The notes below the pieces were generated by a model that worked only from the letters and a program-made list of their open reading frames with translations, did not search any database and was not told the DNA's origin. A stretch of DNA of 64,000 nucleotides from Nonomuraea gerenzanensis (GTDB lineage Bacteria > Actinomycetota > Actinomycetes > Streptosporangiales > Streptosporangiaceae). Position numbers and translations under genes: made by a program. The DNA is taken from assembly GCF_020215645.1 (NCBI RefSeq), contig NZ_CP084058.1, forward strand, positions 6,448,001 through 6,512,000. The letters run 5' to 3'. Positions 7,682 to 47,401 of the stretch are shown piece after piece (positions within the stretch are counted from its first letter, which is position 1; the number at the start of each line of letters is the position of its first letter).

Positions 7682-7701
7682 CTGCGTTCGTTCCCTTCGG
7701 T

Positions 7702-8745
7702 TCAGGCCCACTGAGGAGTGTCGATGATCTGGATCACGGCGCTGGACACGGTCACTCCCGGCCCGGTGCCGAGCATCAGCAGGTGGTCGCCGGGGCCCAG
7801 CTCCCCGGTCACGAGCAGGCGGTCGAGGGAGAGGACCTGGTCGCTGGCCCCGCAGTGGCCGATGGTGCGGCCGTACTCCCAGGTCGAGCGGGACATGGGC
7901 AGGTCGAGCAGGGCCATGCAGCGCTGCTCGACGATCTCCTCCGAGTAGTTCATGAACGCCACCCGGGTCAGGTCGCCCGCCTCGATCCCGCTCTCCTCCA
8001 GCACGCGCTCGACGACCTCCATGAGCGCCCGCTGGATGTTGAACAGCGCGGCCGTGGCCTCGCCCGTGGGCATGACCTGCTGCCTGAACTGCTCGTTGCG
8101 CGCGGCGAAGCTCATCTTGCGGCCGACCGTGACGCCAGGGGGGAACAGCGGCTCGCTGCCCCGGTGCAGCTCCTCGGCCTCGGCCACCGTCGTGGTGCAG
8201 ACCGACGTCAGGCGGGCGAAGCCGGGCTCCCTGGTGAGGACGAGCGCGCTGGCGGCGTCGCCGCCGATGTAGCCGGGGCCCATCCGCCACCGGTCCATCA
8301 GCGGGGTGCCGTAGTTGTCGGCGGCGACGAGCAGGGCGGCCTGCCGGCCCGGCACGGCGGCCAGGTGGCCGGCCGCCAGCTCCATGGCCAGGAACATGCC
8401 GTTGCAGCCCTGCCGGATCTCGGTGGCCAGCACGTCCCCGCCGACGAGGTGACGCTGCAGGTAGGAGTGCGGGGGCCAGCCGTCGGGGCCCTGGTGCCAG
8501 GTGGAGGCGTACAGGAGGAGGTCCAGGTCGGCCGGCGCCCGCCCGCTGCGCTTGAGCGCGCTCTGCGCGGCGTGCAGCGCCATCTCGGGAGCCGGTACGT
8601 CGCCGGCCACCACCGTCGCGGCCAGGTTGTGCAGCTCGGCCTCCTGCGCCGGGTACCAGCCCTTGGCGACGGCCTTCTCGACGCTGACGACGGTCCGGGG
8701 GAGGTAGGCTCCCAGGCCGCTGATGTACGTGTCCGCGTACCGCAT
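7702..8745 (-). CDS. KAS III-like acyltransferase (CerJ/ChlB3 family), second copy
   Basis: This 347-aa protein has the thiolase fold of ketoacyl-ACP synthase III, with nucleophile Cys114 in the IRQGCNGM context. Like CerJ/ChlB3-type acyltransferases it has GHCGASDQ where condensing FabH enzymes have GNT, so acyl transfer is more likely than Claisen condensation. The His present in its sister (VAFPHGRR) is replaced here (VAFMNYSEE), so the catalytic residues are incomplete relative to that copy. In the chlorothricin pathway one such enzyme moves the aryl acid from the PKS to a discrete ACP and a second moves it to the acceptor. The gene set here fits that scheme by analogy. Start ATG 8745 follows GAGGG. 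It lies 18 bases after the ACP gene and 20 bases before the PKS start. Confidence 0.8.
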   Translation of the reverse strand: MRYADTYISGLGAYLPRTVVSVEKAVAKGWYPAQEAELHNLAATVVAGDVPAPEMALHAAQSALKRSGRAPADLDLLLYASTWHQGPDGWPPHSYLQRHLVGGDVLATEIRQGCNGMFLAMELAAGHLAAVPGRQAALLVAADNYGTPLMDRWRMGPGYIGGDAASALVLTREPGFARLTSVCTTTVAEAEELHRGSEPLFPPGVTVGRKMSFAARNEQFRQQVMPTGEATAALFNIQRALMEVVERVLEESGIEAGDLTRVAFMNYSEEIVEQRCMALLDLPMSRSTWEYGRTIGHCGASDQVLSLDRLLVTGELGPGDHLLMLGTGPGVTVSSAVIQIIDTPQWA

Positions 8746-8763
8746 GATGTGCCCTCGCCCCGG

Positions 8764-9015
8764 CTAGACGGTCTGGAGTTCGCTGACCATCGCGACGATG
8801 GCCGAGACGTCCCTGAAGTTGTCGGGGTCGAGCTTGGCGGCGGGGATCGCCACGCCGAGGTCCTTGCGCAGGAAGTTGAGCAGCTTCGCCGTCCGCAGGG
8901 AGTCCAGCAGGCCCGAGACGAGGAGCGGGGTCGTCTCGTCGACCTTGATGTCGTCGCCGTCCTGGACGAGGTCGTCCTGGATGAAGTCGACCAGCCGCCG
9001 CGTGAGGTCGGTCAT
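8764..9015 (-). CDS. Discrete acyl carrier protein of the aromatic PKS cassette
   Basis: This 83-aa protein has the size and helix pattern of an acyl carrier protein, with the phosphopantetheine Ser in GLLDSLR near residue 39. It sits between the two KAS III-like acyltransferases; its ATG overlaps the upstream stop (ATGA at 9012-9015). By analogy with ChlB2 of chlorothricin biosynthesis it would receive the aromatic acyl group released from the PKS ACP and hold it for tailoring or transfer. The exact role is inferred from context only. Confidence 0.85.
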   Translation of the reverse strand: MTDLTRRLVDFIQDDLVQDGDDIKVDETTPLLVSGLLDSLRTAKLLNFLRKDLGVAIPAAKLDPDNFRDVSAIVAMVSELQTV

Positions 9016-10064
9016 GCGCGTGCTCCGCTCGTGACGGGGGTGGTGGACAGGACCCTGAACGCCGCCGCGGCGACGGACGTGCCCGAGCCGAAGCCGACCA
9101 TGAGCAGGTGGTCGCCCGCGACCAGCCCGCCGGTGGCGAGCAGGTGCTCGAAGGCGATGAACTGGTCCACCGCGCCGCAGTGGCCGACGCGCCGCCCGTA
9201 GTCCCAGGTCGTCTGCTCCTCCTTGATGCCCAGCCAGGACATCTGCCCGTCCAGGTCCTCGCGGCGGCCGTGCGGGAACGCCACCCGCGTGATGTCGCCG
9301 AGCCCGATCCCGGCCTCCTCCAGGGTCTGCTCGACCTGCTGCATCATCGTCTTCTGGATGGTCAGGTGGATGCCGGTGCCCTGCGCCTTCAGCAGCCGCT
9401 GGCGGAACTCCTCGTGCCGGTCCCCGAAGCTCAGCCCTCGGCCGACGGTGGCGTCCGGCGGGAACAGGGGGTAGGCGCCGTCGTTGACCGCGTCGGCCTC
9501 CGGGATCACCGTCACGTTCACCGACAGCAGCTCGGCCATGCCGTAGTCCTTGCCGAGGAGGAGCGCGGCCGCGGCGTCGCCGATCAGCGCGCCCGGGGTC
9601 ATCCGCCAGCGGTCCACCAGCGGGGTGCCGTGGTTGTCGGAGGAGACGACCATGGCCGTCCGCCTGCGCGCGTCGGCCTGCAGGTAGCTCGCCGCCAGCT
9701 CCAGCGAGCTGATCATCCCGACGCAGCCGCTGCGGATCTCGAACGCCGGCACGTTCCCGCCGAGCAGGTGCATCTGCAGGTAGTGCTGGGGCTGCCAGCC
9801 GTTCGGGCCCTGGTGCCAGACGGACGGATAGAGCAGCAGGTCGAGGTCGCGCGGGGAGGACTCGCCCCAGCGGTCGTACGCGTCCAGGACCGCGAGCCGC
9901 GCCATCTCGGGCGCGGGCATGTCGCCGGCCACCGCCGCGCCGAGCTGCTGGAACCGCTCGGCCTCCGCCGCCGGGTACCAGCCCTCGCGGACCGCCTGCT
10001 CGACGCTCACGCTGTCAGGCACATGGACGCCGAGGCTCCTGACGAACATGTTGGATGTACGCAC
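9012..10064 (-). CDS. KAS III-like acyltransferase (CerJ/ChlB3 family), first copy
   Basis: This 350-aa KAS III-fold protein is a clear paralogue of the copy at 7702-8745; they share WHQGP.GW, GHCGA.DQ and similar flanks. It has Cys114 in IRSGCVGM, a His in VAFPHGRR, and an Asp in GHCGAVDQ 35 residues later. This Cys-His-Asp set is the one described for CerJ-type O-acyltransferases, replacing the Cys-His-Asn set of FabH. It is the first gene of the cassette. The start is GTG 10064, preceded by AAGGGG at 4 bases; the in-frame ATG at 10049 lacks a ribosome-binding site. The substrate is probably the aryl group made by the downstream PKS. No glycosyltransferase, halogenase or obvious acceptor gene lies nearby. 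Confidence 0.82.
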   Translation of the reverse strand: MRTSNMFVRSLGVHVPDSVSVEQAVREGWYPAAEAERFQQLGAAVAGDMPAPEMARLAVLDAYDRWGESSPRDLDLLLYPSVWHQGPNGWQPQHYLQMHLLGGNVPAFEIRSGCVGMISSLELAASYLQADARRRTAMVVSSDNHGTPLVDRWRMTPGALIGDAAAALLLGKDYGMAELLSVNVTVIPEADAVNDGAYPLFPPDATVGRGLSFGDRHEEFRQRLLKAQGTGIHLTIQKTMMQQVEQTLEEAGIGLGDITRVAFPHGRREDLDGQMSWLGIKEEQTTWDYGRRVGHCGAVDQFIAFEHLLATGGLVAGDHLLMVGFGSGTSVAAAAFRVLSTTPVTSGARA

Positions 10065-10356
10065 ACGTCCCCTTAACTCATCGCCGACCCGGACCACGCC
10101 CCCGGCACTGGAAGGCGGCTTATCCGATTTATTTCGGGCCCCGGGATAAAGCGCGGCCCCCGGCCGGTCGAGAAAACAACGCGGAATTAGCCGGCGAGCC
10201 GTCACCGGCAAGGATAGGGGTGGCTCATCGAATGAAGCAATATGTGCGTCCACAAATCGGTCCGGCGACATTCGGTGATCAGCACCGGACGGAACGTGGT
10301 GCATTTCGGCAATGCGCATTTCCGCTTTACGTCGCGGATTCTTTCGCAAGTGGTAA
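10065..10356. other. Promoter-bearing intergenic region upstream of the aromatic PKS operon
   Basis: About 290 bp without a credible gene, clearly less GC-rich than its surroundings. It must carry the minus-strand promoter of the KAS III-ACP-KAS III-PKS operon. A short inverted repeat TTATCC / GGATAA brackets about 20 bases near 10120-10155 and could be an operator. The long upstream extension of the KAS III frame through here has poor codon bias and is rejected. Confidence 0.4.
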
Positions 10357-35477: not shown

Positions 35478-36488
35478 ATGAGCCGGTCGCGGTACTCCCG
35501 CGTGGCGGGGGCGGCGGTGCATCTGCCGGACGGCGGCCTGACGACGCCGCAGCTGGAGGACCTGCTGGCCGAGCGCAACCCCGGCATCAGCGTGCCGCGC
35601 GGCCTGATCGAGCGGCACAGCGGCGTGCGCTTCCGCCACGTCGCGCCGCCGGGGTGGATGGCCTCGGACCTGGCGGTCGCGGCGGCCCGCGAGCTGCTGC
35701 GGCAGACGGGGCACACGCCGCCGTCGATCGACCTGATCATCTACGCCGGGGTGTCCGGCGACGCCGTCGAGCCAGCGACGGGGCACATGGTGGCGGCCAA
35801 GCTGGGGGCCGACTGCCCGGTCTTCGACGTGCGGGACGCCTGCAACAGCGTGCTGCGGGCGATCCACCTGGCCGACGCGCTCATCACCGGCGGCCATCAC
35901 CGTACGGTGCTCGTCGCCTGCGGCGAGGTCGTCACCTCCAGCATCCAGTGGCGGCTGGAGTCGCAGGCGGACTTCGAGCCGGCGATCCCGTCCTACACGG
36001 TCTCCGACTCGGGCACGGCGCTGCTGCTGGAGTCCAGCGGCACCCCCGGGGTGCTCGGGGGCCGGTTCGGGGCGAACTCCGCGTACTACGAGGCCTCGAT
36101 CATGCCGTTCGTGCACGACGGCGCCGGGGGGCTGCGGGCCGGTCGGTTCACCATCGATCCGGTCGCGCTGGCCATCGGCGTGCAGAAGCTGGATCTGGGC
36201 GTGCTGCGGCAGCCGCTGGCCGAGCGGGGGCTCGGCTGGGAGGACGTGGCGGTGGTGTGCGTGCACCAGCCGTCGCTGGCGGCGCTGCACTGGTTGTGCG
36301 AGCTGATCGAGCTGCCCCGGGACAAGGCCGAGGTGACGATCGCCGAGCACGGCAACCTGGCCGCCGCCACGCTGCCGATGCAGCTGCATTTGGCCGAGCG
36401 GGCGGGGCGGCTCGCGCGCGGTGACCTCGTCGCCCTGGTGGGGGTGGCCAGCGGGCTCAGCTCGGGCACGGTGCTGCTGCGCTGGTGA
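35478..36488 (+). CDS. oleA: OleA-like ketoacyl synthase III (head-to-head acyl condensation)
   Basis: This 336-aa protein has the thiolase fold with a full KAS III catalytic set: Cys122 in DVRDACNSV, His263 in VCVHQPS and Asn293 in EHGNLAAAT. The neighbouring genes for an alpha/beta-hydrolase, an NAD-dependent reductase and an AMP-ligase make it an OleA candidate, which joins two fatty acyl-CoAs head to head into a 2-alkyl-3-ketoacid. A simple FabH function is less likely given this context. ATG 35478 follows GGAAGGGGCGAG. Its stop overlaps the MMPL gene (GTGA). Gene symbol by context and fold, not by a database match. Confidence 0.78.
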   Translation: MSRSRYSRVAGAAVHLPDGGLTTPQLEDLLAERNPGISVPRGLIERHSGVRFRHVAPPGWMASDLAVAAARELLRQTGHTPPSIDLIIYAGVSGDAVEPATGHMVAAKLGADCPVFDVRDACNSVLRAIHLADALITGGHHRTVLVACGEVVTSSIQWRLESQADFEPAIPSYTVSDSGTALLLESSGTPGVLGGRFGANSAYYEASIMPFVHDGAGGLRAGRFTIDPVALAIGVQKLDLGVLRQPLAERGLGWEDVAVVCVHQPSLAALHWLCELIELPRDKAEVTIAEHGNLAAATLPMQLHLAERAGRLARGDLVALVGVASGLSSGTVLLRW

Positions 36489-38668
36489 GAAGGGCCCTCA
36501 TGCCGGTCGGTACGGGACACCGCCGAGCCCTGCTGCCCGCCGGGCGGGTCCTGCCGCAGGACAGGCCCGGCGTCCTCGACCGGCTCGGGCGGTCGGCGGC
36601 GGGCCCTGCCGGGCGGCTGGTCATCGCGGTGTGGCTGCTCCTGCTCGGCGCGGCCGTGATGTGGCTGCCGGGCCTGCCCCAGCGGCTGGCCCCGCCGTCG
36701 CTGGAGGTGCCGGGCTCCCCGTCGGCGGTGGCCGCGGCGGAGATCGCGCGCGGCTTCCCTGAGCTGGGGAGCGAGCAGATGATGCTGGCCTTCGGCTCGG
36801 CGACCCTGGGCACCGGCGAGCCGCGCTACCAGCGGGCGCTGGCCGCCACGGTGGCCGCGCTGGCCGCCCGGCCGGACGTCGGCGCGATGTTGCCGCTGCC
36901 GGAGACCGCCGGCGGGCATCCCCGCCACTCCTACGTGCTGGTGGGCGTGCACGGCGACGAGCCGGCCCGGCAGCGCAACCTGCCCGCCCAGCTCGCGGCC
37001 GCGCGGCAGGCCGCCGCGGACGCCTCGGCGGGCGCCGTCACCGTGACGATCCTGGGGGTGAGCCGTGCCTTCGCGCAGCTCGCGCACGCCGACCTGGCGG
37101 ACCTGCGGTCGATGGAGGCCATGACGGTCCCGGTGGCGGCGGCGCTGCTGGTGCTGGGCCTGGGCGCGGTGGGCGCGGCGCTGCTGCCGCTGGTCGTGGG
37201 CGGCGCGGCGATCGTGACCGGTGTGGGCGCGCTCGCGGCGGCGGCTGCGCTGGCGCCCGTCGACTCGACCATGCTGACCTACACGGTCACCATGTCGCTG
37301 GGGCTGGGGCTGGACTACACACTGCTGATCCTGCTGCGTTACCGCCAGGCCCGGCGTGCGGGCCTGCCGCCCCGGACGGCCGCCGGACGGGCCACCGCCA
37401 CCGCGGGCGGCACCGTGATCTGGTGCGCGGCGGCGATCGTCGTCACCTCCTGCGCGCTGCTGGTCGTGGACGTGCCGTGGGCGCACTCCCTGGCGCTGGC
37501 CGGCATGCTGGCCGCCCTGGTCACCCTGGCCGCCGCGCTGACGCTGGGCCCGGCGCTGCTGTCCCGGCTCGACCGGTGGCTGGGGTGGGGCACGCTGCCG
37601 TGGCGGCGGCGTGGCGGGCGCCCGAGGCGGCAGCCCGCGTGGCTGCGGGCCGCCGAGCACATGATGCGGCGGCCCGGCCGGTACGCCGTGGCCGCCGCCG
37701 CCGTGCTGGTCCTGGCCGCCGTGCCGGTGCTGCACCTGCGGATGGGGCTGCACTACGACCGTCCGGCGCTGGCGGGCACCGACCTGGGCGCCGGGCTGGC
37801 CGGGCTGGAGCGGGACAGGGTGGCCGGGCTGACCGCCGTGGCGCTGCCGCATCCGGGCAGCGCCGCTCCCGTGGACACCTTCGCGTTCCAGCAGGCGCTG
37901 CGGGCCGATCCGAGGGTGTCCATGGCGACCGTGCTGGACAACGGCAGGGACCTGACCGTGCTGCTCGTCGCCGACCGGTGCCCGCCGGACGGGGCCGCCG
38001 CCGCCGCGTTCCAGCACGACCTGCGCGCGCTGGGAGCGCGCCTGCTGCCGGCCGGTCAGCGGCTGCTGGCCGTCGGGCCGGCGGCGCGGCTCGGTGACCT
38101 GGCGGCGGGCGCGCTGGAAGGGCTGTGGCAGGTGCTGGCGGTGGTGCTGCTGGCGTCGTTCGGGCTGCTGCTGCTGACCTTCCGCAGCCTGCTCATCCCG
38201 GTCAAGGCGGTCGCGATGAACCTGCTGTGCGTCTGCGCCGCCTTCGGGCTGCTCACCGTCGTCTTCCAGGACCTGGGCCCGCCGGGCGCCGACGTCAACG
38301 CGCTGCTGCCGCTGATCGTCTTCACCGTCGTGTTCGGCCTGTCGCTGGACTACGAGGTCTTCCTCGTCCACCGCATCGCCGAGCACTACCGCCGGGACGG
38401 CGACAACACCGCGGCCGTGCTGCACGGGCTGCGGCACACGGCGCGTCCCATCACGCTGGCAGCGGCCATCATGGCGGTCACGTTCGGCGGGCTGATGCTG
38501 ACCCGGCGGCTGGACTTCCAGCAGGGCGGGTTCGCGGTGGCGGCGGCGATCGTCCTGGACGCCACGGTGATCCGTATGGTGCTGGTGCCGAGCCTGATGC
38601 GGCTGCTCGGGCACCGGAACTGGTGGCTGCCCTGGTCGCGGGCGCTCACCGCCGCAGGAAGGCGGTGA
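36485..38668 (+). CDS. MMPL/RND-family lipid transporter
   Basis: This is a 727-aa membrane protein of the MMPL family, with two repeated halves. Each has one helix (VIAVWLLLLGAAVMWLP; YAVAAAAVLVLAAVPVL), a large extracytoplasmic domain, and five clustered helices including the conserved MSLGLGLDYTLLILLRYR and VVFGLSLDYEVFLVHRI segments (GLDY / SLDY proton-relay motifs). MMPL proteins move lipids and lipid-like products to the envelope, so it is the likely exporter of the ole pathway product. GTG 36485 overlaps the oleA stop; ATG 36500, 5 bases after AGAAGGG, may be the real start. The gene end overlaps the convergent oleB-like gene by 23 bp. Confidence 0.88.
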   Translation: MRRALMPVGTGHRRALLPAGRVLPQDRPGVLDRLGRSAAGPAGRLVIAVWLLLLGAAVMWLPGLPQRLAPPSLEVPGSPSAVAAAEIARGFPELGSEQMMLAFGSATLGTGEPRYQRALAATVAALAARPDVGAMLPLPETAGGHPRHSYVLVGVHGDEPARQRNLPAQLAAARQAAADASAGAVTVTILGVSRAFAQLAHADLADLRSMEAMTVPVAAALLVLGLGAVGAALLPLVVGGAAIVTGVGALAAAAALAPVDSTMLTYTVTMSLGLGLDYTLLILLRYRQARRAGLPPRTAAGRATATAGGTVIWCAAAIVVTSCALLVVDVPWAHSLALAGMLAALVTLAAALTLGPALLSRLDRWLGWGTLPWRRRGGRPRRQPAWLRAAEHMMRRPGRYAVAAAAVLVLAAVPVLHLRMGLHYDRPALAGTDLGAGLAGLERDRVAGLTAVALPHPGSAAPVDTFAFQQALRADPRVSMATVLDNGRDLTVLLVADRCPPDGAAAAAFQHDLRALGARLLPAGQRLLAVGPAARLGDLAAGALEGLWQVLAVVLLASFGLLLLTFRSLLIPVKAVAMNLLCVCAAFGLLTVVFQDLGPPGADVNALLPLIVFTVVFGLSLDYEVFLVHRIAEHYRRDGDNTAAVLHGLRHTARPITLAAAIMAVTFGGLMLTRRLDFQQGGFAVAAAIVLDATVIRMVLVPSLMRLLGHRNWWLPWSRALTAAGRR

Positions 38669-39554
38669 CGGCGGGGACGAGGCGGTCGTGGGCGTCCTCC
38701 AGCACGTAGTGCCCGGCCCGGGGGAAGAGGTGCACCTGGGCGTTCGGCAGGCGCCGCCGCCACTCGCGTAGCATGAGCGGGTCGAAGACCGGGTCGCGCA
38801 GCCCCCAGCCGATCAGGACGGGCCGGTCGGCGAAGGCGGCCACGCTCTCCCCCGCCCGCAGCAGCAGCGGCCACGACCGGTCGCCGGGGCCGAGCGGGAT
38901 GTCCTGGACGAACCGCTGCACGGCCAGGCGGTGCTCCAGCTGGTCTCCGGGGGCGAGGAAGGCGGCACGCACGTCCCCGGGCAGCCGGTGACGGACTCCG
39001 AACGGCGGCAGCGTGGCCAGCCTGGCGAAGGCGTGGTGGCGCAGGAACAGGCGCTCGCCCAGGCGCGTCTCGCGCAGCAGCCACAGCGGCAGCCGCAGCG
39101 CCGGGCGCACGCGCGGGCCGTGCGGGTTGGGGAAGGCGGCGGTGTTGAGCACGACCAGCCGGGACACCCGGCCAGGGTGGCGGGCGGCCCAGGCCATGCC
39201 GATGGGGCCGCCCCAGTCGTGCATCACGAGCGTCCAGCCGTGGTCGGGGGCGCCCCGTTCGGCGATGAGGTGGCCGGTGAGCGCGTCGAGGTCGGCCACG
39301 CGGGAGGCCAGCGTGTGGGAGTAGCGGTCCGCGCCCGGCTTGTCCGACAGGCCCATGCCGAGGTGGTCGGGGGCGAGGCAGCGGTGCTCGCCGCGCAGCG
39401 CCAGGATGAGCCGCCGCCACAGGTAGCTCCACGACGGGTTGCCGTGCAGCATGAGCACGGGCGCGCCGGTCGCCTCGCCCTCGTCCAGGTAGTGGTGGCG
39501 CAGGCCCTCGCGGACGAACCAGCGGGGGCGGAAGGGGTAGCCGGGCAGGTGCAT
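38646..39554 (-). CDS. oleB: OleB-like alpha/beta-hydrolase (beta-lactone decarboxylase)
   Basis: This 302-aa protein belongs to the haloalkane-dehalogenase-like branch of alpha/beta-hydrolases: oxyanion segment HGNPSWSYLWR (residues 38-48), nucleophile Asp113 in MHDWGGPIGM, and base His282 in RAGHYVLED. OleB enzymes of this type decarboxylate the beta-lactone made by OleC to a cis-olefin. ATG 39554 overlaps the stop of the oleD-like gene by one base (TGATG), so it is the last gene of the operon ACP-KS-secreted protein-oleC-oleD-oleB. Its presence argues for an olefin as end product and not a stable beta-lactone. Confidence 0.8.
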   Translation of the reverse strand: MHLPGYPFRPRWFVREGLRHHYLDEGEATGAPVLMLHGNPSWSYLWRRLILALRGEHRCLAPDHLGMGLSDKPGADRYSHTLASRVADLDALTGHLIAERGAPDHGWTLVMHDWGGPIGMAWAARHPGRVSRLVVLNTAAFPNPHGPRVRPALRLPLWLLRETRLGERLFLRHHAFARLATLPPFGVRHRLPGDVRAAFLAPGDQLEHRLAVQRFVQDIPLGPGDRSWPLLLRAGESVAAFADRPVLIGWGLRDPVFDPLMLREWRRRLPNAQVHLFPRAGHYVLEDAHDRLVPAVTAFLRR

Positions 39555-40558
39555 CAGGGCCTCCGCGAGGTGTTCCCCGACAGGTGGGCGGCGAGCCTGC
39601 CCATGCCCGCCGCCGTGCTGACGCGCGGCTCGTATCCGAGGTCGCGGCGGGCGGCGGAGATGTCGAACCAGTGGGAGGTGGTGGCCTGGACGGCCGCCAT
39701 CCGGGTGATCGGCGGTGCGGCCCGGACGCGGGCGAGCCGGTAGGCGTACTCGACGGCGGTGGCGGCCAGGCGGGCCGGGCGGGCCGGCACCCGCCGGGCC
39801 ACCGGGGGCAGCCCGGCCGCCGCGAGCAGGCCGTCGATCCAGTCGGCGAGCGTGGTCGGCTCGCCCTGGGTGATGAAGTAGGCGCGGCCGGCGGGGGGTG
39901 CCCCGAAAGTCAGGGCGTCCAGGGCCAGGAGGTGGGCTTCTGCGGCGTTGTCGACGTACACGGTGTCGACGCGCTTGCCGGGGGCGTGCGGCAGGACGAG
40001 CCGGCCGCACCTGGCCTTGGCGGCGAGGTGCGGCAGGAAGTGCGGGTCGCCCGGCCCCCAGACGAGGTGGGGGCGCAGCGCGACCGTGGCCAGCCGGTCA
40101 CCGTCGGCGGCCAGCACCAGCCGTTCGGCGCCGGCCTTGCTCGCCGGGTAGGCGGCGGGGAAGCGGCGCGCGTACGGGGCCGACTCGTCCACGCCCTCCA
40201 GGTCGCGGCCGGCGTGCACGACGCTCGGCGAGGAGGTGTGCACCAGGCGGGCGACGCCGGCGCGCAGGCAGGCGTCGATGACGTTCGCCGTGCCCCGCAC
40301 GTTGGTCGAGCGGTAGGCGGAGGCCGGCCCCCACAGGCCGGCCAGGGCGGCGCAGTGCACGACGGCCTCGCAGCCGGTCACGGCGGCCCGTACGGCGTCC
40401 TGGTCGCGGATGTCGGCGGCGTGCTGGACCACGCCCAGCTCGGCCAGCGCCGGGTAGCGGCGGCGGTTCAGCGCCGAGACCTGCTCGCCCCGCTCCGCCA
40501 GGAGGCGGCAGACGGCCTGGCCGAGGAACCCGCCGCCGCCGGTCACCAGGACCTTCAC
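39554..40558 (-). CDS. oleD: OleD-like NAD(P)-dependent 2-alkyl-3-ketoacid reductase
   Basis: This 334-aa extended SDR of the 3-beta-HSD/epimerase type has the nucleotide-binding VTGGGGFLGQ at residues 5-14 and the active-site Tyr137-x-x-x-Lys141 (YPASK), with DNAAEAHLLAL typical of the group. In ole pathways OleD reduces the 2-alkyl-3-ketoacid from OleA to the 2-alkyl-3-hydroxyacid that OleC then cyclises. Start GTG 40558 overlaps the stop of the AMP-ligase gene (GTGA); the much longer upstream frame is antisense. Both neighbours are oleB- and oleC-like, which supports the call. Confidence 0.82.
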   Translation of the reverse strand: MKVLVTGGGGFLGQAVCRLLAERGEQVSALNRRRYPALAELGVVQHAADIRDQDAVRAAVTGCEAVVHCAALAGLWGPASAYRSTNVRGTANVIDACLRAGVARLVHTSSPSVVHAGRDLEGVDESAPYARRFPAAYPASKAGAERLVLAADGDRLATVALRPHLVWGPGDPHFLPHLAAKARCGRLVLPHAPGKRVDTVYVDNAAEAHLLALDALTFGAPPAGRAYFITQGEPTTLADWIDGLLAAAGLPPVARRVPARPARLAATAVEYAYRLARVRAAPPITRMAAVQATTSHWFDISAARRDLGYEPRVSTAAGMGRLAAHLSGNTSRRP

Positions 40559-42162
40559 CGCTCCTCCGTGCCGAGCCTGCGCGCCGCCCAGCGGGCCAGC
40601 AGCGGGCGGCGGATCTTGCTGGCGTGCCGGACGTCCATCGGGAAGCACGGGTGCGCCAGCACGTGGGCGATGTCGCCGATGACGCCTGCCTGCGCCCGCA
40701 CCCGTTCGACGACCTCGCGGCGCGCGCGGCGCGAGGCGCCGGGCTCGCACTCCACGCACAGGACCGCGCGCCGGCCGTCCGTCGGGCCCACGCCCACCAG
40801 GGCGCTGCGCCGCACTCCCGGCAGCGCGTTCACGATCGGTTCGACCTGGTCGGTGTACAGCTCGCCGCCGCCGGTGCGCACGCGCTCGCTCTTGCGCCCG
40901 GCGAACCACAGCCGCCCCCGCTCGTCCTGCCAGCCGAGGTCGCCCATGCGGTGCACGGGCTCGCCGTGGTCGTCGATGCGGGCCAGGGCGCTCTCGTACG
41001 GGCGGGCGAGGTACGGATCCCCGACCGCCGGGCCCGACACGGTGATCTCCCCCACGGTCCCCGGCGGCACCAGCAGGTCGTCCGACCAGCGCGGGATCGC
41101 CTCGTCGGTGATGCGCACGACGCGGACCCGGTTGCCCGGCAGGACACCGCCCAGGCAGGTGCCGGCGCCCCGGGCGGTGGCCGCGGCCGTGGCGGCGAGC
41201 TCGGCGGCGTCGGCCATGCTGACCAGCAGGCATTCGGTGGCCCCGTACACCGAGCGCACGTCGGCGTGCGCGGGCAGGCACTGCTGGGCGCGGCGCAGCG
41301 TACGGAACGGCAGCGGCGCGCCGGCGGTGAGCACCACCTCCACGCTGTCCAGCACCAGCCCGTGCCGCAGGCAGTGGCGGGCGAGCCGGTCCAGCAGGGC
41401 GGGCGCGGCGAACAGGGCGCGCACGCCGTGCGTGGTGATGGAGCGGGCCATGGCGGCCGGGTCGGTGCGTTCGGGGCGGCGCAGGTCGAGCCGGGGGATG
41501 ACCGCCGCGCAGCCCATCGACGGCGCCGCCACCGCGAACGGCAGGAACGTCGAGTACACCGTGGCTCCCGGCTCCAGCACGCCGAGGTGCGCCAGCAGCC
41601 CCGTCTGCCCGGCCAGGTGCCGGTGACGGTAGGGCACCCCCTTGGGCGCGCCGGTGGAGCCCGAGGTGAAGGCGATCAACGCCGGTCCGCCGGCGTCCTG
41701 GCTCGTTGCCGGCCTGTCGCGGTGGCGGGCGAACCACAGGGTGCGGGTGGCGAGCGTGACCGTCGTGTGCAGGCTGTCCCGCGCCCATCCCAGCAGGACG
41801 CGCGCCAGGTGCGCGCGCGGGACCGCGACGAACGCTCCCGGAGCCGCCTCGGCCAGGCACGCGCCGACGGCCCGCGCGCCGAGTCCCGGGTCAATCAGGA
41901 CGGGTACGGCCCGCAGCCGCAGCAGTGCCAGCACCACGGCGACCAGATCCTGCCCTGGCGGCACCATCACGGCGGTCCGCGTCCCCGGCCGCACGCCGGC
42001 ATCGGCCAGCCGGGTCGCGGCGCGGGTGATGAGGTCGTCGAGCTGCGCGTAGGTCAGTGTCTCCGCGTGGCGGCGCCGGTCGACGTGGCAGGCCACCGTG
42101 CCGGGGTGGGCGCGCGTCCAGTGCTCGGTCATGGCCACGACGTCGAAGAGCGGGGTGGTCAC
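40555..42162 (-). CDS. oleC: OleC-like AMP-dependent ligase (beta-lactone synthetase)
   Basis: This 535-aa member of the ANL superfamily has the ATP-binding loop ALIAFTSGSTGAPKG (residues 161-175), an SVYGATECL segment (A5), the MGDLGWQDERGRLWFAGRKSERVRTGG block (A7-A8), and a C-terminal domain ending in the DVRHASKIRR segment with its Lys. In ole clusters this protein activates the 2-alkyl-3-hydroxyacid with ATP and closes a beta-lactone ring. Close homologues act in nocardiolactone and lipstatin biosynthesis. GTG 42162 lies 27 bases after the secreted-protein gene, and its end overlaps oleD. A plain fatty acyl-CoA ligase role cannot be excluded. Confidence 0.82.
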   Translation of the reverse strand: MTTPLFDVVAMTEHWTRAHPGTVACHVDRRRHAETLTYAQLDDLITRAATRLADAGVRPGTRTAVMVPPGQDLVAVVLALLRLRAVPVLIDPGLGARAVGACLAEAAPGAFVAVPRAHLARVLLGWARDSLHTTVTLATRTLWFARHRDRPATSQDAGGPALIAFTSGSTGAPKGVPYRHRHLAGQTGLLAHLGVLEPGATVYSTFLPFAVAAPSMGCAAVIPRLDLRRPERTDPAAMARSITTHGVRALFAAPALLDRLARHCLRHGLVLDSVEVVLTAGAPLPFRTLRRAQQCLPAHADVRSVYGATECLLVSMADAAELAATAAATARGAGTCLGGVLPGNRVRVVRITDEAIPRWSDDLLVPPGTVGEITVSGPAVGDPYLARPYESALARIDDHGEPVHRMGDLGWQDERGRLWFAGRKSERVRTGGGELYTDQVEPIVNALPGVRRSALVGVGPTDGRRAVLCVECEPGASRRARREVVERVRAQAGVIGDIAHVLAHPCFPMDVRHASKIRRPLLARWAARRLGTEER

Positions 42163-42189
42163 ACCGCATCACCTCTCACAGCTCGGGGG

Positions 42190-42567
42190 TCAGCAGGAGG
42201 TGGCTTCCAGGACGCGTACCTCCCTGGGCAGCCGGAAGCCGAAGAGCTGCGACGGCGGTGGCGCCGCGCCCGCGGCCGTCGCGCCCGTCGCGCCCGTCGC
42301 GCCCTCAGCCGGGGCGGGGGCCGCGGCGGGAGCCGTCGCGGGTTGCGCTGACGCGGCGGGAGCCGTCGCCGCGGAGGCTGACGCGGCGCTTACCCCCGAG
42401 CTGAAGAAGTCGCTGAAGGCCTGGGCGAGTGCCTGGACGGGCACGGTGACGCACACCCGCTCCGGGTCCGGCCCGGCTTGAGCGAGGTCGGGCCCGTCGG
42501 CGGCGGCGGCCGGACCGGCGGATGCGGAGACGATCAGGGTGGCGGCGAGCAGAGCGGAGAGGCGCAT
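42190..42567 (-). CDS. Small secreted protein ending in cysteine (paralogue A)
   Basis: This 125-aa protein has a signal peptide (MRLSALLAATLIVSASAGPAAA), then a conserved core RVCVTVPVQALAQAFSDFF, a 55-residue Ala/Pro/Gly-rich low-complexity linker, and the C-terminus REVRVLEATSC. It is a paralogue of the protein at 45706-46152, which shares LCISVPVGAMAKTFSTF and ends VLQATYC. Only two Cys are present, one in the core and one as the very last residue. They could form a disulfide, or the terminal Cys could be modified. ATG 42567 follows AAGGA. It sits inside the ole operon between the ketosynthase and oleC. No known family. Confidence 0.75.
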   Translation of the reverse strand: MRLSALLAATLIVSASAGPAAAADGPDLAQAGPDPERVCVTVPVQALAQAFSDFFSSGVSAASASAATAPAASAQPATAPAAAPAPAEGATGATGATAAGAAPPPSQLFGFRLPREVRVLEATSC

Positions 42568-42580
42568 GAGAAGTCCTTGG

Positions 42581-43870
42581 TCAATGTGGCGAGAAGATGA
42601 GCGTGGCGTTGTGGCCGCCGAAGCCGAACGAGTTGGACAGCACCGGCCCCGGCGGCATGGGCCGGACCCGGCCGACGACGTCGACGTCGCACGCGGGGTC
42701 CAGGTGATCGAGGTTGGCGGTGGGCGGGATGGCGCGTTCGTTCATGGACAGGACTGCGGCCACGGCCTCGATGGCGCCGGCGGCGGCGATGGCGTGCCCG
42801 GTGACCCCCTTGATCGAGGTGACGGGGACCCCGGCGGGGCCGAACACCGCGCTGATCGCCCGGGCCTCGGCCACGTCGTTCAGCGGTGTCCCGGTGCCGT
42901 GCGCGTTGACGTGCGCGATCTCGACCGGTGACAGGCCGGCGTCGGCGAGCGCGGCCCGCATGCAGCGGGCGGCGCCCTCGCCGTCCGGCGGCGGCGCGGT
43001 GAGGTGGTGGGCGTCGGAGGTGGTGGCGTAGCCGGTCAGCTCGGCGTGGATGCGGGCGTCGCGGCGCAGCGCGTGCTCCAGGTTCTCCAGGACGAGGAAC
43101 GCCGCGCCCTCGGCCAGCACGAACCCGTCACGGTCACGGTCGAAGGGCCGGCTGGCGCGCTCGGGGTCGTCGTTGCGCAGCGACAGGGCCTGGCAGCGGT
43201 GGAAGGCGAGCAGCACGGTGGGGGTGACGCAGGCTTCTGCCCCACCGGCGACCACCAGGTCGGCCGAGCCGTCGCGCAGAAGGCGGGCCGCCTCGCCGAT
43301 GGCGTGCGCGCCGGAGGCGCAGGCCGTCTCCACCGACAGGCTCGGGCCCTGGATCCGGTGGTGGATGCCGATCGCCGCGGCGGCGGAGTTGTGCATGATC
43401 ATCGGGACGTGCAGCGGGCCGGGGTTGCCGCGCCCGGGATACCGGCCGGCGAGCATGCCCGCCTCGTCGGTCGTCCTGCCGCCCAGGGCGACGCCGGTCA
43501 CCACCGCCCGCCGCTCCGGTGGCGTCCCGGCCACCCCGTCGCCGTCGCCGTCGCCGTCGCCGGCGCCAGAGCCAGAGCCAGAGCCAGAGCCGGCGCGGGC
43601 GTCGGCGAGCGCGTCGGTGGCGGCGCAGAGCGCGAGCCTGGCCACCCGGTCGAGCCGGGAGGCCTGCTTGGGCGTCAGGTACGCCGAGGTGTCCAGGTCG
43701 GCGATCTGGCAGGCGAAGCGCACTCCCAGCCCCTCGGTGTCGAACGAGGTGATCGGCCGGGCGGTGGACCGGCCGGCCAGCAGCGCGTTCCACAGCTCCT
43801 TGGGGTGGGCGCCCGCCGTCGTGCGCACGCCCATCCCGGTCACCGCGATCCTGACGCGGCCAGTCCTCAC
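42581..43870 (-). CDS. Beta-ketoacyl-ACP synthase (KAS II/FabF-like)
   Basis: This 429-aa condensing enzyme has a complete Cys-His-His set: Cys184 in VETACASGAHA, His324 in NAHGTGTPLND, Lys354 and His359 in SIKGVTGHAIAAAG. There is no adjacent chain-length factor, so it does not look like half of a type II aromatic PKS pair. With the ACP gene just upstream it may extend or supply a special acyl chain for the ole enzymes. GTG 43870 overlaps the ACP stop (GTGA). Residues 94-112 are a Gly-Ser/Gly-Asp repeat coded by microsatellite DNA, an insertion in a surface loop not seen in FabF. Confidence 0.85.
   Translation of the reverse strand: MRTGRVRIAVTGMGVRTTAGAHPKELWNALLAGRSTARPITSFDTEGLGVRFACQIADLDTSAYLTPKQASRLDRVARLALCAATDALADARAGSGSGSGSGAGDGDGDGDGVAGTPPERRAVVTGVALGGRTTDEAGMLAGRYPGRGNPGPLHVPMIMHNSAAAAIGIHHRIQGPSLSVETACASGAHAIGEAARLLRDGSADLVVAGGAEACVTPTVLLAFHRCQALSLRNDDPERASRPFDRDRDGFVLAEGAAFLVLENLEHALRRDARIHAELTGYATTSDAHHLTAPPPDGEGAARCMRAALADAGLSPVEIAHVNAHGTGTPLNDVAEARAISAVFGPAGVPVTSIKGVTGHAIAAAGAIEAVAAVLSMNERAIPPTANLDHLDPACDVDVVGRVRPMPPGPVLSNSFGFGGHNATLIFSPH
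43538..43600. repeat. Hexanucleotide microsatellite inside the ketosynthase gene
   Basis: Four copies of GTCGCC (43538-43561) are followed by about four copies of AGAGCC (from 43567). On the coding strand they give (Gly-Asp)n and (Gly-Ser)n dipeptide runs. Both units preserve the frame, so copy number could change without inactivating the enzyme. Confidence 0.85.
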
Positions 43871-44115
43871 GCGGACCCGCTCAGCAGCAGCCGGGCCTTG
43901 GCGAGCACGTCGCCGACGGTCCTGACGTCGGCGAGGGTCTCGCGGGGCAGGGGCCCCCAGGAGTCCTCCAGGGCGATGTGCAGCTCGGCCAGGTCGAGGC
44001 TGTCGGCCTCCAGGTCCTCGCGCAGGAGTGCGCCTTCGGTGACCCGGCTCGGATCGACCTTGAGGATCTCGGCGCAACGCTCGCGTACCACGGTCACGAT
44101 GTCTTCTTCGCTCAC
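43867..44115 (-). CDS. Acyl carrier protein of the ole-linked operon
   Basis: This 82-aa ACP has the phosphopantetheine site in LEADSLDLAELHIALED, with a preceding ILKVDPSRVTEGALLREDL helix-loop. GTG 44115, six bases after GGAAGGAG, is the start; the longer frame enters the promoter region. It is the first gene of the minus-strand operon ACP-KAS-secreted protein-oleC-oleD-oleB and lies right behind promoter copy 1. A dedicated ACP is not part of standard ole clusters, so this one points to a special acyl supply. Confidence 0.88.
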   Translation of the reverse strand: MSEEDIVTVVRERCAEILKVDPSRVTEGALLREDLEADSLDLAELHIALEDSWGPLPRETLADVRTVGDVLAKARLLLSGSA

Positions 44116-44152
44116 GGCGGACTCCTTCCTGCCAGCGCGTCGGACGCGGCTG

Positions 44153-44235
44153 CTGTCACCCAGCATCGCCGCGCGGGCGATAGCTGATCACTTGTGGCGC
44201 GTCGTCCCCCGTTAAGAAGTTGATCAAGTTTTGCC
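44153..44235 (-). promoter_or_regulatory. Duplicated promoter element, copy 1 (before the ACP-ole operon)
   Basis: This 83-bp segment is 69/83 identical (13 substitutions, one 1-bp gap) to the segment at 46213-46294. Best conserved are CTGTCACCCAGC, TGATCACTTGTG, CCGTTAAG and TTGATCAAG. Each copy has two TGATCA palindromes about 40 bp apart that read TGATCA-2-TTG-like on the plus strand. Both copies stand in the same orientation at a similar distance before a minus-strand gene. It is very likely a shared promoter/operator. Confidence 0.75.
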
Positions 44236-44340
44236 GGGAGGCGGTTCGCCCGTGCCGCCGCAGATCATGCTCGCTTCTGTCGTGGGTGCGCCTGTGAGGG
44301 ATCAGCCGCGCACCGATCACGGCCAGTACGAGGAGATGAC

Positions 44341-44901
44341 ATGCCCGTTCACCCGCTCACACCCGTTCGCTTGCTTGTTCCCGTCGCCACGGCCGCCGTC
44401 CTGACGACCGCCCCCGCCTCGGCGGCGACCGTCCAGCAGACGTTGCTCACCTGCCAGGTCGCCACCACCCCGGACCGCCCGATCACGTTCAACCCGCCTG
44501 TCAGGCTGCTGCCGCGCACGGTGACGGCGCAGGCCGGGATCGTGCTGACCGGCTGCGTCTCCTCGGCGTCGTCGGCCGCGCACCTGCGCTCGGGCACCAT
44601 GACCGTGCACAGCACCGGCCGCGCCTCCTGCGCGGGCGTGCGGGACGTCCACGGCAAGGGCACCATCACCTGGTACGGGGCCGACGGCCGGCAGGCGGGC
44701 GTCTCCACGGTGCGGCCCTCGGTGGAGAAGGTGGCCGGTTACAACCCGGGCGACATGCTCCTCGGCGGGCGGATCAGCAAGGGAACGCTGGCCGGGGCCC
44801 GCCTGACCGGCACCGCCACCCCCACCTCGAACGTGAACTCCTGCGCCACCAAGGGGCTCGGCACCGTCCACGGCGTCGGCAGGATCACCTTCACCGCCTG
44901 A
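44341..44901 (+). CDS. Secreted protein of unknown function
   Basis: This 186-aa protein has a signal peptide (LLVPVATAAVLTTAPASAA) and a mature part rich in Thr, Val and Gly with four Cys (LLTCQV, LTGCVS, ASCAGV, NSCATKG). The alternating pattern suggests an extracellular beta-sandwich with two disulfides. ATG 44341 lies 5 bases after GAGGAG. It is divergent from the ACP-ole operon, so promoter copy 1 lies between the two genes and could drive both. Its end overlaps the methyltransferase gene by 11 bp. Function unknown. Confidence 0.72.
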   Translation: MPVHPLTPVRLLVPVATAAVLTTAPASAATVQQTLLTCQVATTPDRPITFNPPVRLLPRTVTAQAGIVLTGCVSSASSAAHLRSGTMTVHSTGRASCAGVRDVHGKGTITWYGADGRQAGVSTVRPSVEKVAGYNPGDMLLGGRISKGTLAGARLTGTATPTSNVNSCATKGLGTVHGVGRITFTA

Positions 44902-45619
44902 CGTAGGCGCGCTCGATGAAGGGGCGCTCACACAGGTGGTAGAAGAGGTAGATGCCGAGCTGGAAGGCCCCCGCGAAGGCGAGTCCCGCCAGCGAGCCGG
45001 ACCAGACGGCCCAGCCGTAGGCGTGCAGGTTGCCGGCCCCGTACATGGGGTTGCGCAGGTGCCGGTAGGGGCCGGCGACGACCAGCTCGCTCGCGTCCGT
45101 GAGCGGGCGGCCGTGGAACATGTCGCGGCAGTAGTAGGTGTCCAGGCCGGCCGTGCTGGCCGCCCATACCTTGTAGAGCGTGCCCACCGCCATGAGGGCC
45201 GCCCCGATGGTGTAGGCGGCCCAGGACGGGACGGCGGCGGGGAGGCTGTCGCCGTAGGCGTGGATGACGACGGCCTGGGCGAAGCCCTGGTTCATGAAGA
45301 GCAGGCCGAGGGCGACCTCGTACAGGGCGTAGGCGCGGTCCTCGCCGTAGCGGGCGATGAGCGCGGTGCGTCCGGGGCCGCCGAGCGTCAGGCTCAGCCC
45401 GCCGTAGTACAGCAGCCACACCGTCGCGGCGTAGGCGGTGGCGGCGGCCGGGGTCGTCAGCACGGGGGCGAGCAGGTACTGCAGGGTGGCCATCGAGGCG
45501 AACAGGAGCAGGCGTGCGGGGCGGTAGCGGGTGCCCCGGTCCAGGCGCAGGCCGGAGATGCCGAGCAGGATGATGGGCAGCCGCCAGGTGCTGGTCCGCG
45601 CGGCGGTGGTGGTGTGCAT
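44891..45619 (-). CDS. ICMT/PEMT-type integral membrane methyltransferase
   Basis: This 242-aa protein has about six hydrophobic helices and the C-terminal signature of the isoprenylcysteine carboxyl methyltransferase / phospholipid methyltransferase family: VAGPYRHLRNPMYGAGNLHAYGWAVW, then ERPFIERAY. This region binds S-adenosylmethionine at the membrane face. Members methylate carboxyl groups of C-terminal cysteines, phosphatidylethanolamine or other lipids. It lies 86 bases after a gene for a secreted protein whose last residue is Cys, and in a region with lipid-forming ole genes, so both a Cys-terminal protein and a lipid are candidate substrates. ATG 45619; weak Shine-Dalgarno. Confidence 0.78.
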   Translation of the reverse strand: MHTTTAARTSTWRLPIILLGISGLRLDRGTRYRPARLLLFASMATLQYLLAPVLTTPAAATAYAATVWLLYYGGLSLTLGGPGRTALIARYGEDRAYALYEVALGLLFMNQGFAQAVVIHAYGDSLPAAVPSWAAYTIGAALMAVGTLYKVWAASTAGLDTYYCRDMFHGRPLTDASELVVAGPYRHLRNPMYGAGNLHAYGWAVWSGSLAGLAFAGAFQLGIYLFYHLCERPFIERAYVRR

Positions 45620-45705
45620 GTGCGGGTCTTCCGGTCGCTGGACGGGTGGTGCCGGGCCGGCCTCGGCTCGCCGGGGGCCGGGCGGGGGTGGGTGGGTGGG
45701 CGCGG

Positions 45706-46152
45706 TCAGCAGTAGGTGGCTTGCAGGACGAGCATGCTCTCGGGCAGCGCGGGCCCGGACGCGGCGACGCCGGACACCGCGCCGCCGGCGGGCGAGGCGG
45801 CGGGCGAGGCGGCGGGCGAGGCGGCGCTCGCAGCCGCAGCACCGGCGCTCGTGGGCGCAGCACCCGCGCTCGGCGACACAGCGCCCGGAAGCGTGACGGC
45901 GCCGAAGGCCGGCCCGCCGGCGGGCGAGGCGGCGTTCGCCGCCGTGCCGGCGCCCATCTCGGCGGCGAAGCTGGTCACGAAGGTGCTGAAGGTCTTGGCC
46001 ATGGCGCCCACGGGCACGCTGATGCAGAGCTTGCCGGAATCACCGGCGAGCGCGGCGGCGTCCGGTGCGATGGCGGGCTCGGGAGTGTCGGCGGCGGCGG
46101 GCCCGGCGAGCAGGACAGCGCCCAGGGCGGCGGCGAGAACGCGGATGCGCAC
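45706..46152 (-). CDS. Small secreted protein ending in cysteine (paralogue B)
   Basis: This 148-aa protein starts at GTG 46152, five bases after GAGGAG; the longer frame is not supported. The layout equals that of paralogue A: signal peptide (RIRVLAAALGAVLLAGPAAA), core KLCISVPVGAMAKTFSTFVTSFAAE, a 75-residue Ala/Ser/Gly/Pro-rich region with repeated SPAA units, and a C-terminus MLVLQATYC. Only two Cys exist, again one in the core and one at the very end. It stands behind promoter copy 2 and before the ICMT-like gene. No known family; the conserved ends suggest a small folded unit formed by the core and tail with a flexible loop between. Confidence 0.75.
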   Translation of the reverse strand: MRIRVLAAALGAVLLAGPAAADTPEPAIAPDAAALAGDSGKLCISVPVGAMAKTFSTFVTSFAAEMGAGTAANAASPAGGPAFGAVTLPGAVSPSAGAAPTSAGAAAASAASPAASPAASPAGGAVSGVAASGPALPESMLVLQATYC

Positions 46153-46212
46153 GATGGCTCCTCGGTCGAGGCGGCGAGAGACCCGGCTCGGACGCATGGC
46201 GCCGGAGGCGGT

Positions 46213-46294
46213 CTGTCACCCAGCGTCGCCGATGCGGCAATAGATGATCACTTGTGACGCGACGTACACCGTTAAGGAATTGATCAAGTTTGCC
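46213..46294 (-). promoter_or_regulatory. Duplicated promoter element, copy 2 (before secreted paralogue B)
   Basis: Second copy of the roughly 83-bp element found at 44153-44235, in the same orientation and 60 bases before the start of the paralogue B gene (copy 1 ends 37 bases before its gene). The conservation is outside coding sequence and stops at both ends, so the duplication or selection concerns the control region itself. It links the secreted-protein/methyltransferase unit to the ole operon. Confidence 0.75.
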
Positions 46295-46537: not shown

Positions 46538-47401
46538 ATGATCGTGAAGACGGAGCGATGGGCGCTGGGCGGCGATCTGAGCGTCGCGCGGATCGGCTAC
46601 GGCGCGATGAAGCTGACCGGCTGGCCGAGAGGCGACCGCCCTGACAGGGACACGGCCCTCGCCGTCCTGCGCCGGGCCGTGGAGCTCGGGGTGAACCACA
46701 TCGACACCTCGCACTACTACGCCCGTGACGGGGTGGCGGCCAACGAGCTGATCCGGGAGGCGCTGCATCCGTACCCGGACGACCTGGTGATCGTGACCAA
46801 GGTGGGCGCGCTGGTGGAGGGCGCCGACATCGACCTGCCCGCGTCGGCGAAGAGGGGCCTGACGCCCGACGGCCTGCGCCGCGGCGTCGAGGCGAACCTG
46901 CGCTCGCTCGGCGTGGACCGCCTCGACGTGGTGAACCTGCGGATGGGCGACCTCGACCGCGACGAGACGTCCCTGGCCGCGCCCTTGGAGACGTTGCTCG
47001 CGCTGCGTGAGGAGGGCCTGATCCGCCAGCTGGGCGTCTCCAACGTCACGGCCGGCGAGTTCGCCGAGGCCCGCGCGATGGCGCCGATCGCCTGCGTCCA
47101 GAACCTCTACAACCTGACGCGGCGTGAGGACGACCCGATCGTGGACGCGTGCGCGGAGGCCGGGATCGCGTTCGTCCCGTTCTTCCCGGTCGGCGGCTTC
47201 CAGCCGCTCACGGCCGCGCGCCTGGACGCCGTCGCCGCCCGGCACGGGGCCACCGTGCCGCAGGTGGCGCTGGCCTGGCTGCTGGCCCGCTCGCCGAACA
47301 TCCTGCTCATCCCCGGCACCGGTTCGCCGGCCCACCTGGAGGAGAACGTCGCCGCCGGGGCACTGAGCCTGAGCCCGGACGACCTGGCCGACCTCGGCTA
47401 G
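46538..47401 (+). CDS. Aldo/keto reductase
   Basis: This 287-aa protein has the AKR barrel pattern: RIGYGAMKLTG, VELGVNHIDTSHYYA (catalytic Asp and Tyr), VIVTKVG (Lys), LRSLGVDRLDVVNLRMGD, and GVSNVTAGEF, then VALAWLLARSPNILLIPGTGSPAHLEEN for NADPH binding. In the usual HxxRxG position the sequence NLRMGD lacks the His, which is a deviation from classic AKRs but common in the AKR5/AKR11-like bacterial group. It reduces carbonyl compounds with NADPH; substrate unknown. ATG 46538. Confidence 0.9.
   Translation: MIVKTERWALGGDLSVARIGYGAMKLTGWPRGDRPDRDTALAVLRRAVELGVNHIDTSHYYARDGVAANELIREALHPYPDDLVIVTKVGALVEGADIDLPASAKRGLTPDGLRRGVEANLRSLGVDRLDVVNLRMGDLDRDETSLAAPLETLLALREEGLIRQLGVSNVTAGEFAEARAMAPIACVQNLYNLTRREDDPIVDACAEAGIAFVPFFPVGGFQPLTAARLDAVAARHGATVPQVALAWLLARSPNILLIPGTGSPAHLEENVAAGALSLSPDDLADLG

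Follow-up and report, generated by a model that had tools for sequence, protein, structure and literature searches.

A conserved variant of the ole gene cluster in Nonomuraea, combined with a putative export/surface module and a family of small secreted-type proteins restricted to the genus

Introduction

In the genome of Nonomuraea gerenzanensis, a complete set of oleABCD-type genes lies among genes for an acyl carrier protein (ACP), a stand-alone ketosynthase (KS), an exporter, a membrane methyltransferase and small secreted proteins. What does such a locus make, and do the added genes belong to the Ole pathway? The stretch of DNA analyzed, hereafter the window, covers 64,000 nucleotides (G000:C1:6448001-6512000) within the largest contig of the 12-Mb genome, and the cluster occupies positions 35478-46152 of it. 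We found that the locus is genuine and conserved, and that it represents a variant ole cluster, which comprises an apparent export/surface module and a secreted protein family restricted to the genus. It is undescribed in the open-access literature searched: judged by title, none of the matches listed dealt with ole genes in Nonomuraea or with such secreted proteins, and no paper with both oleABCD and MMPL was found, subscription papers lying mostly outside this search.

Results

On the plus strand of the window, the gene for an OleA-like β-ketoacyl-ACP synthase III (KAS III; 336 residues; 35478..36488; PF08541/PF08545) overlaps that for an MMPL-family exporter of 727 residues (36485..38668; PF03176, E 1.7e-60). 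The minus strand carries, from 44115 down to 38646 and with short gaps or overlaps, the genes for the ACP (43867..44115; PF00550; about 82 residues from a start codon chosen by eye, with a DSL motif), a FabF-type KS (42581..43870; PF00109/PF02801) whose GTG start overlaps the ACP stop, the small secreted-type protein SP1 (42190..42567), an OleC-like β-lactone synthetase of 535 residues (40555..42162), an OleD-like reductase of 334 residues (39554..40558) and an OleB-like α/β hydrolase of the haloalkane dehalogenase type (38646..39554; PF00561). A second minus-strand unit, from 46152 down to 44891, encodes SP2 (45706..46152), a paralogue of SP1 by sequence comparison, and a PEMT/ICMT-type membrane methyltransferase of 242 residues (44891..45619; PF04191, E 1e-17). 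All of these genes were located on the strands on which an initial annotation of the window had placed them. Between the two minus-strand units, on the plus strand, lies a gene that it had not listed; its product, X186 (44341..44901), is a secreted-type protein of 186 residues with four cysteines in its mature part and no Pfam match.

The locus was syntenic in three further genomes, and Nonomuraea sp. PA05 is a named record with a syntenic locus. The enzymes and the MMPL protein were mostly 80-90% identical in these genomes, X186 65-83% and SP1/SP2 38-77% over the aligned parts. The arrangement is therefore not due to chance, and the synteny bears out the view of an oleABCD set embedded in a wider lipid/secreted-protein package.

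At the level of protein families, oleA, oleB, oleC and oleD are clustered in the window. The best NCBIfam match of OleC was the Xanthomonas OleC model (NF045786, 498 bits), that of OleD was the OleD model (NF042422, 394 bits), and OleC exceeded the cut-off of PRK09274 (493.5 bits, cut-off 478). OleB has the HDWGG nucleophile motif of a solved α/β hydrolase, sharing HDWGGPIG and GHYV with chain 8ooh, and its further matches were mostly haloalkane dehalogenases. The catalytic cysteine and two histidines of FabF are conserved in the KS, as compared with the FabF-type 1e5m. OleA possesses the catalytic cysteine (in DVRDAC) and the equivalent of Glu117, a position at which FabH has F; this glutamate, in VEPAT, aligned with that in LEPST of Xanthomonas OleA. 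A 2017 study by Jensen and colleagues is said, going by its title, to make this glutamate key to the condensation by OleA. The OleA-type glutamate and the best match of OleC to an OleC model both agree with a complete oleABCD-type set. Of 41 locus rows, 40 had the EP motif; the remaining row was an unrelated KAS III. In a tree of 44 OleA rows, the type I rows (those of window-like clusters, see below) and type III rows formed one clade of 13 (support 84/99) and 23 of the type II rows another (85/86), with L152 and G552 outside both. We also noted that, in six type I genomes, Asp replaces Asn two residues before the OleA catalytic cysteine (DVRDAC); the other 34 ole-type rows have Asn.

The distribution of the cluster was surveyed in 54 genomes of Nonomuraea, 297 of the order and 394 of the class. 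From the loci read, two types were defined: the window-like cluster (type I) and an oleA-C-D-B operon (type II). OleC was matched at 1e-60 in 17 of the 54 Nonomuraea genomes, and at 1e-100 in 33 genomes of the order and 11 of the class. Type I occurred in 11 Nonomuraea genomes (G000, G070, G004, G015, G011, G021, G025, G029, G034, G028 and G076) and type II in eight, with G015 and G028 carrying both. Each of the 11 type I loci contained OleB. OleA was found at the locus in nine, and in the broken assemblies of G011 and G021 on a different contig. An SP gene stood between those for KS and OleC in ten loci, X186 recurred in ten (56-83% identical to the window protein in nine of the other ten), and MMPL was matched at 1e-60 in ten of the 11 genomes. 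The pair of SP2 and methyltransferase was limited to four loci.

A separate feature of some type I loci is a polyketide synthase (PKS) with a C-methyltransferase domain, encoded directly downstream of oleA in G028, G021 and G011 (L171, L172 and L173). The PKS of G028 is complete, has reducing domains and lies between oleA and MMPL, where the window has no PKS; in G021 the gene is cut by the contig end, and in G011 its KS is alone on the contig.

The initial annotation had also proposed a common promoter for the two minus-strand units. When 15 upstream regions (11 from ACP operons and four from SP2 units) were aligned, a conserved block of ~75 bp emerged that contains two TGATCA-type boxes at a spacing of 36 bp; in four of the regions, one box was imperfect. 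A 43-bp pattern derived from these regions was then used to scan the 54 Nonomuraea genomes with at most three mismatches. It gave 17 sites in 13 genomes, and a reversed control pattern gave none. Fifteen of these, spread over the 11 type I genomes, were found by construction; the sole additional ones were located in G059 and G010, one each and with three mismatches each. Within the window, this core precedes both the ACP operon (44185..44227, minus strand) and the SP2-methyltransferase unit (46245..46287, minus strand), so the proposed sharing was confirmed. Within the genus, every genome with the block carried the cluster or a minimal form of it, and SP followed ACP or ACP-KS in 12 of the 13 genomes with the promoter.

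This minimal form, found in G059 and G010 (both single-contig genomes), consists of the promoter, ACP and SP and, divergently, OleA (58-67% identity) and KS (62%). No match at 1e-3 to OleB, OleC, OleD, MMPL, X186 or the methyltransferase was detected in the 20 kb read, and genome-wide there was no OleC at 1e-60, the best OleD match (1.9e-13) being to generic-looking reductases. Therefore, SP requires neither the later Ole steps nor MMPL/X186 at its locus. The G076 locus aligned with that of its close relative G034 in three large blocks of 92-96% DNA identity plus 88 bp at 78%. It retains the six biosynthetic genes oleA, ACP, KS, oleC, oleD and oleB; it lacks SP and a 607-base stretch holding X186, and the alignment ends at MMPL. 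In the whole genome of G076, neither MMPL at 1e-60 nor SP at 0.01 was found, and a paralogue of X186 was present elsewhere. As the genes are found in the remaining type I loci, G076 has most simply lost them, at three separate places.

These natural splits suggest that the extra genes form an export/surface module not strictly tied to the Ole enzymes. The initial annotation had placed the extra genes in one system with ole, naming homologues regularly found away from ole genes as part of what would contradict it. Such cases were found, namely the minimal loci of G059 and G010, X186 beside MMPL apart from ole, and a lone SP gene in G032, and a strict tie to ole is not supported. Full loci, G076 without the export and secreted-protein genes, and G059 and G010 with ACP, SP, OleA and KS alone provide a ready-made natural comparison.

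SP1, SP2 and their relatives show an apparent signal peptide (by eye), one internal cysteine and, in every relative read, a C-terminal cysteine. The family had no Pfam match, and its NCBIfam matches were at chance level (one for SP1 at E 1). When 5.8 billion proteins were searched with a profile, 17 relatives were retrieved, 16 of them named Nonomuraea and one a metagenome protein; P0033 matched at E 5.4e-4 and the other 16 at 2.7e-12 or better. Both cysteines were present in all 17, the profile itself having contained Cys-ending rows. SPs selected as Cys-ending frames were not counted as evidence for the terminal residue. All nine SPs from a motif scan unfiltered on the C-terminus end in cysteine, as do the four matches of a search with SP2 alone, one of which came from the window's own or a near species. 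At a threshold of 0.01, SP was detected in 14 of the 54 Nonomuraea genomes, i.e., ten with type I, G059, G010, G032 and G061. The SP of G032 ends in TIAPC and has no cluster-type neighbours; the match in G061 (6.4e-4) was taken as chance. For the conserved ends, the nonsynonymous rate (dN) was below the synonymous rate (dS) in 13 of 13 between-species pairs, and the low-complexity linker varied from 19 to 83 residues (SP1 and SP2 of four genomes). SP is a genus-restricted family of secreted-type proteins.

No fold was assigned to SP, as the AlphaFold2 model was of too low confidence (mean predicted local distance difference test, pLDDT, 55.4); in that model, short strands are predicted at the internal and terminal cysteines, a hint at a disulfide only. 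Anchoring by a lipobox or by sortase was rejected, no such motif being visible by eye: the internal cysteine follows ERV, GKL, GRA and similar, at least six residues past the apparent AxA site. A CAAX box is likewise absent, as the cysteine is the last residue. Another small secreted-type protein with two cysteines, SP3, has its gene between those for SP and OleC, in opposite orientation, in six type I loci (G011, G021, G025, G029, G034 and G028; L092, L093, L095, L096, L098 and L099), with the motif DCVLGxG...LPSP...C and variants of it. No SP3 match was found among the best 30 rows for the loci of the four methyltransferase genomes.

X186 was matched at 1e-5 in 48 of the 297 genomes of the order. 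Seventeen X186 loci outside the ole cluster were chosen by hand from the match list, so that their share is not an unbiased rate; an MMPL gene (45-61% identical) directly adjoined X186 in 11 of them, and the stretch read contained none in the other six. Like MmpL3 and its relatives, the window MMPL has PF03176, and MmpL3 was its best NCBIfam match; in contrast with MmpL3, it is linked to X186, and its 165.7 bits are far below the MmpL3 cut-off of 1400. On these data, X186 is put forward as a candidate partner of Streptosporangiaceae MMPL exporters. Its predicted all-β model (pLDDT 48.5) had a dirigent protein as best Foldseek match (E 0.26) and none at 0.001, and no fold is claimed.

Full-length relatives of the methyltransferase were present in four of the 54 Nonomuraea genomes, where the gene follows SP2; 17 further genomes had partial, C-terminal matches only. 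Homologues named Nonomuraea were 85-88% identical. Of 29 loci read with relatives, 27 (31-42% identity) lay outside the genus, and 22 of these had no other cluster match at 1e-5, several being short contigs that cover the neighbours in part. The remaining five were from Streptomyces (L051, L055, L058, L064 and L065), with the methyltransferase (~40%) paired with an SDR. These loci resemble the window in having KS (~42%, in four of five) and MMPL (~31%, in four of five) relatives, and differ from it in having no OleA, OleB, OleC or SP match; L055 and L058 were confirmed to carry genes for a GNAT protein, an ACP and an aminotransferase-fold enzyme. Given this lipid-type context, a lipid fits better than a protein as the substrate of the methyltransferase. 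A search of the PDB with its profile gave no match at E 1. The Streptomyces loci themselves resemble an amino-lipid, sphingolipid-like pathway (aminotransferase-fold and GNAT genes, L058). Next to the SP2 unit of the window, an aldo/keto reductase gene (46538-47401, plus strand) has counterparts of 90-92% identity in the three further genomes with the methyltransferase; the remaining type I stretches read gave no match to it.

Outside Nonomuraea, 23 OleC loci were fetched, 19 of which belong to the same family, Streptosporangiaceae (L140-L158). A complete oleA-C-D-B operon was found in 16 of these 19. In these loci of other genera, OleA was 49-55% and OleC 51-57% identical to the window proteins. 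The operons differ from type I in that a KS match lies 6.2-6.9 kb from oleA (15 of 16); in L141, the single such locus examined, a 2,538-residue PKS begins with this KS (KS, AT, DH, methyltransferase, ER-type, KR, ACP). None of the 19 loci matched ACP, SP, X186, MMPL or the methyltransferase at 1e-4. In L159, which belongs to another family, a putative ACP gene (by eye) and a KS (46%) are divergent from oleB-A-C-D and an MMPL (31%). Chain-building genes close to ole genes, which known ole clusters had been taken to lack, are therefore not unique to this locus, given the KS near 15 of 16 related operons and the putative ACP, KS and MMPL of L159. As a marker outside the genus, the KS was not discriminating, with matches at 1e-75 in 299 of the 394 genomes of the class; among the loci retrieved, the nearest were ACP-KS pairs and KS genes beside oxoamine synthase-like genes (by eye).

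The window also contains a second cluster of lipid/polyketide type (3728-10349, minus strand), which encodes a 1,520-residue KS-AT-DH-ACP protein, a KAS III and, between them, a short open reading frame without Pfam match. In G015 (L041), a KS closely related to that of this second cluster is found near the ole genes, on the other side of them.

Discussion

We lean, somewhat beyond even chances, towards a locus whose product, probably an olefin, is a long-chain lipid formed by the head-to-head coupling of two acyl chains and then exported. In such a pathway, ACP and KS would build or hold a dedicated acyl chain. By analogy with known Ole enzymes, OleA would join two chains to a β-keto acid, OleD would reduce it, OleC would close a β-lactone and OleB would remove CO2 to leave an internal olefin. 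MMPL would export the product with X186 as an extracytoplasmic partner, a role suggested by how often the two lie side by side and by the lack of both at the G076 locus. SP1 and SP2 would leave the cell by the Sec route, judging from their apparent signal peptides, and most likely bind or organize the exported lipid outside, their two cysteines probably forming a disulfide. The methyltransferase would more likely act on a lipid than on a secreted protein. We infer both this chemistry and the function of the SPs from sequence and gene context.

Several observations weigh against this proposal. The minimal loci of G059 and G010 do without the later Ole steps, SP occurs alone in G032, and G076 keeps an X186 paralogue elsewhere in its genome. 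The scores of OleC and OleD are below the equivalog cut-offs (498 vs. 900 bits and 394 vs. 580 bits, respectively). When the PDB was searched with the window OleA, a FabH chain scored 128.5 bits vs. 70.5 for Xanthomonas OleA. The OleA pattern EPxx[AS]x(14,18)DxxNACL, used in PMC7158056, does not match the window protein, which has EPATG and DVRDACN. That study names the Micrococcales as the sole Gram-positive order with oleABCD, possibly because OleA of the type I kind misses the pattern. In addition, PMC7064751 describes two actinobacterial OleA clades, one of them weakly active. The phylogeny suggested at the outset as a check gave a divided answer. The clade of the window excludes the two FabH chains; however, these join the three Xanthomonas-type OleA rows (93/74) on long branches that were flagged. 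The window OleA is not inside FabH, and a direct link to Xanthomonas-type OleA is unsupported by the tree. Finally, we know of no product of the Nonomuraea type I loci.

With the oleABCD clusters of Xanthomonas and Micrococcus, the locus shares the four enzyme families, the OleA glutamate and cysteine and the OleB nucleophile motif; it differs from them by the added ACP, KS, MMPL, X186, SP1/SP2 and methyltransferase and by an OleA outside the published pattern. The pfa-ole system of marine gammaproteobacteria (PMC6463001) similarly links Ole enzymes to a dedicated chain-building system, although there it is a polyunsaturated fatty acid synthase rather than a stand-alone ACP and KS, and the accessible text does not mention secreted proteins.

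Among the alternatives, the one that survives best concerns the SPs, which might be structural proteins of the hyphal or spore surface, co-regulated with lipid synthesis and not lipid-binding. We regard this as possible, at rather less than even chances: the variable low-complexity linker, the two conserved cysteines and the lone copy in G032 would suit such a role, whereas the position of SP after ACP or ACP-KS in 12 of 13 promoter genomes and the joint absence of SP, MMPL and the cluster X186 in G076 speak against it.

Somewhat more doubtful is a different end product, a β-lactone or another OleA-derived compound, for which ACP and KS would supply an unusual chain and OleB would have another role. 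The minimal loci without OleC and OleD, the deviating OleA pattern, and the PKS directly after oleA in G028, G021 and G011, of which that of G028 is complete and has reducing domains, are consistent with it. Against it stand the finding of OleB at each of the 11 type I loci, with HDWGG in the window copy, and the lack of oleB in the β-lactone clusters described in PMC7064751.

The methylation or lipidation of the secreted proteins, as initially proposed, found no support. In one form, the C-terminal cysteine of SP would be lipidated and carboxyl-methylated, CAAX-like, by the PEMT/ICMT-type enzyme. The terminal cysteine in all relatives read and the methyltransferase gene following SP2 in four genomes had suggested it, but the enzyme is present in four of 54 genomes while SPs end in cysteine without it, and its Streptomyces relatives are found in lipid-type loci with no SP match. 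Moreover, an exported C-terminus lies on the side opposite to the cytosolic methyl donor. We consider this form improbable. We give as little credence to SP as a new class of secreted lipid carrier, with its C-terminal cysteine as the covalent site for a chain made by ACP, KS and OleA, capped by the methyltransferase in some species; if true, such attachment would represent C-terminal protein lipidation in bacteria without prenylation. Least likely of all, and barely worth entertaining, are precursors of ribosomally synthesized and post-translationally modified peptides, which in the lipolanthines have a C-terminal core cysteine: a terminal cysteine beside fatty-acid-type genes recalls them, yet SP has a Sec-type signal peptide (by eye), and neither a lanthionine synthetase nor a decarboxylating flavoprotein was detected among the Pfam-scanned part of the window's genes.

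Ole products have mostly been treated as membrane hydrocarbons. The combination of Ole chemistry with a chain builder, an exporter and its recurring secreted partner, and genus-restricted SPs would indicate a function outside the cell or at its surface. This suggests that, in Nonomuraea, the lipid may be intended for the cell surface or the outside and not for the membrane alone.

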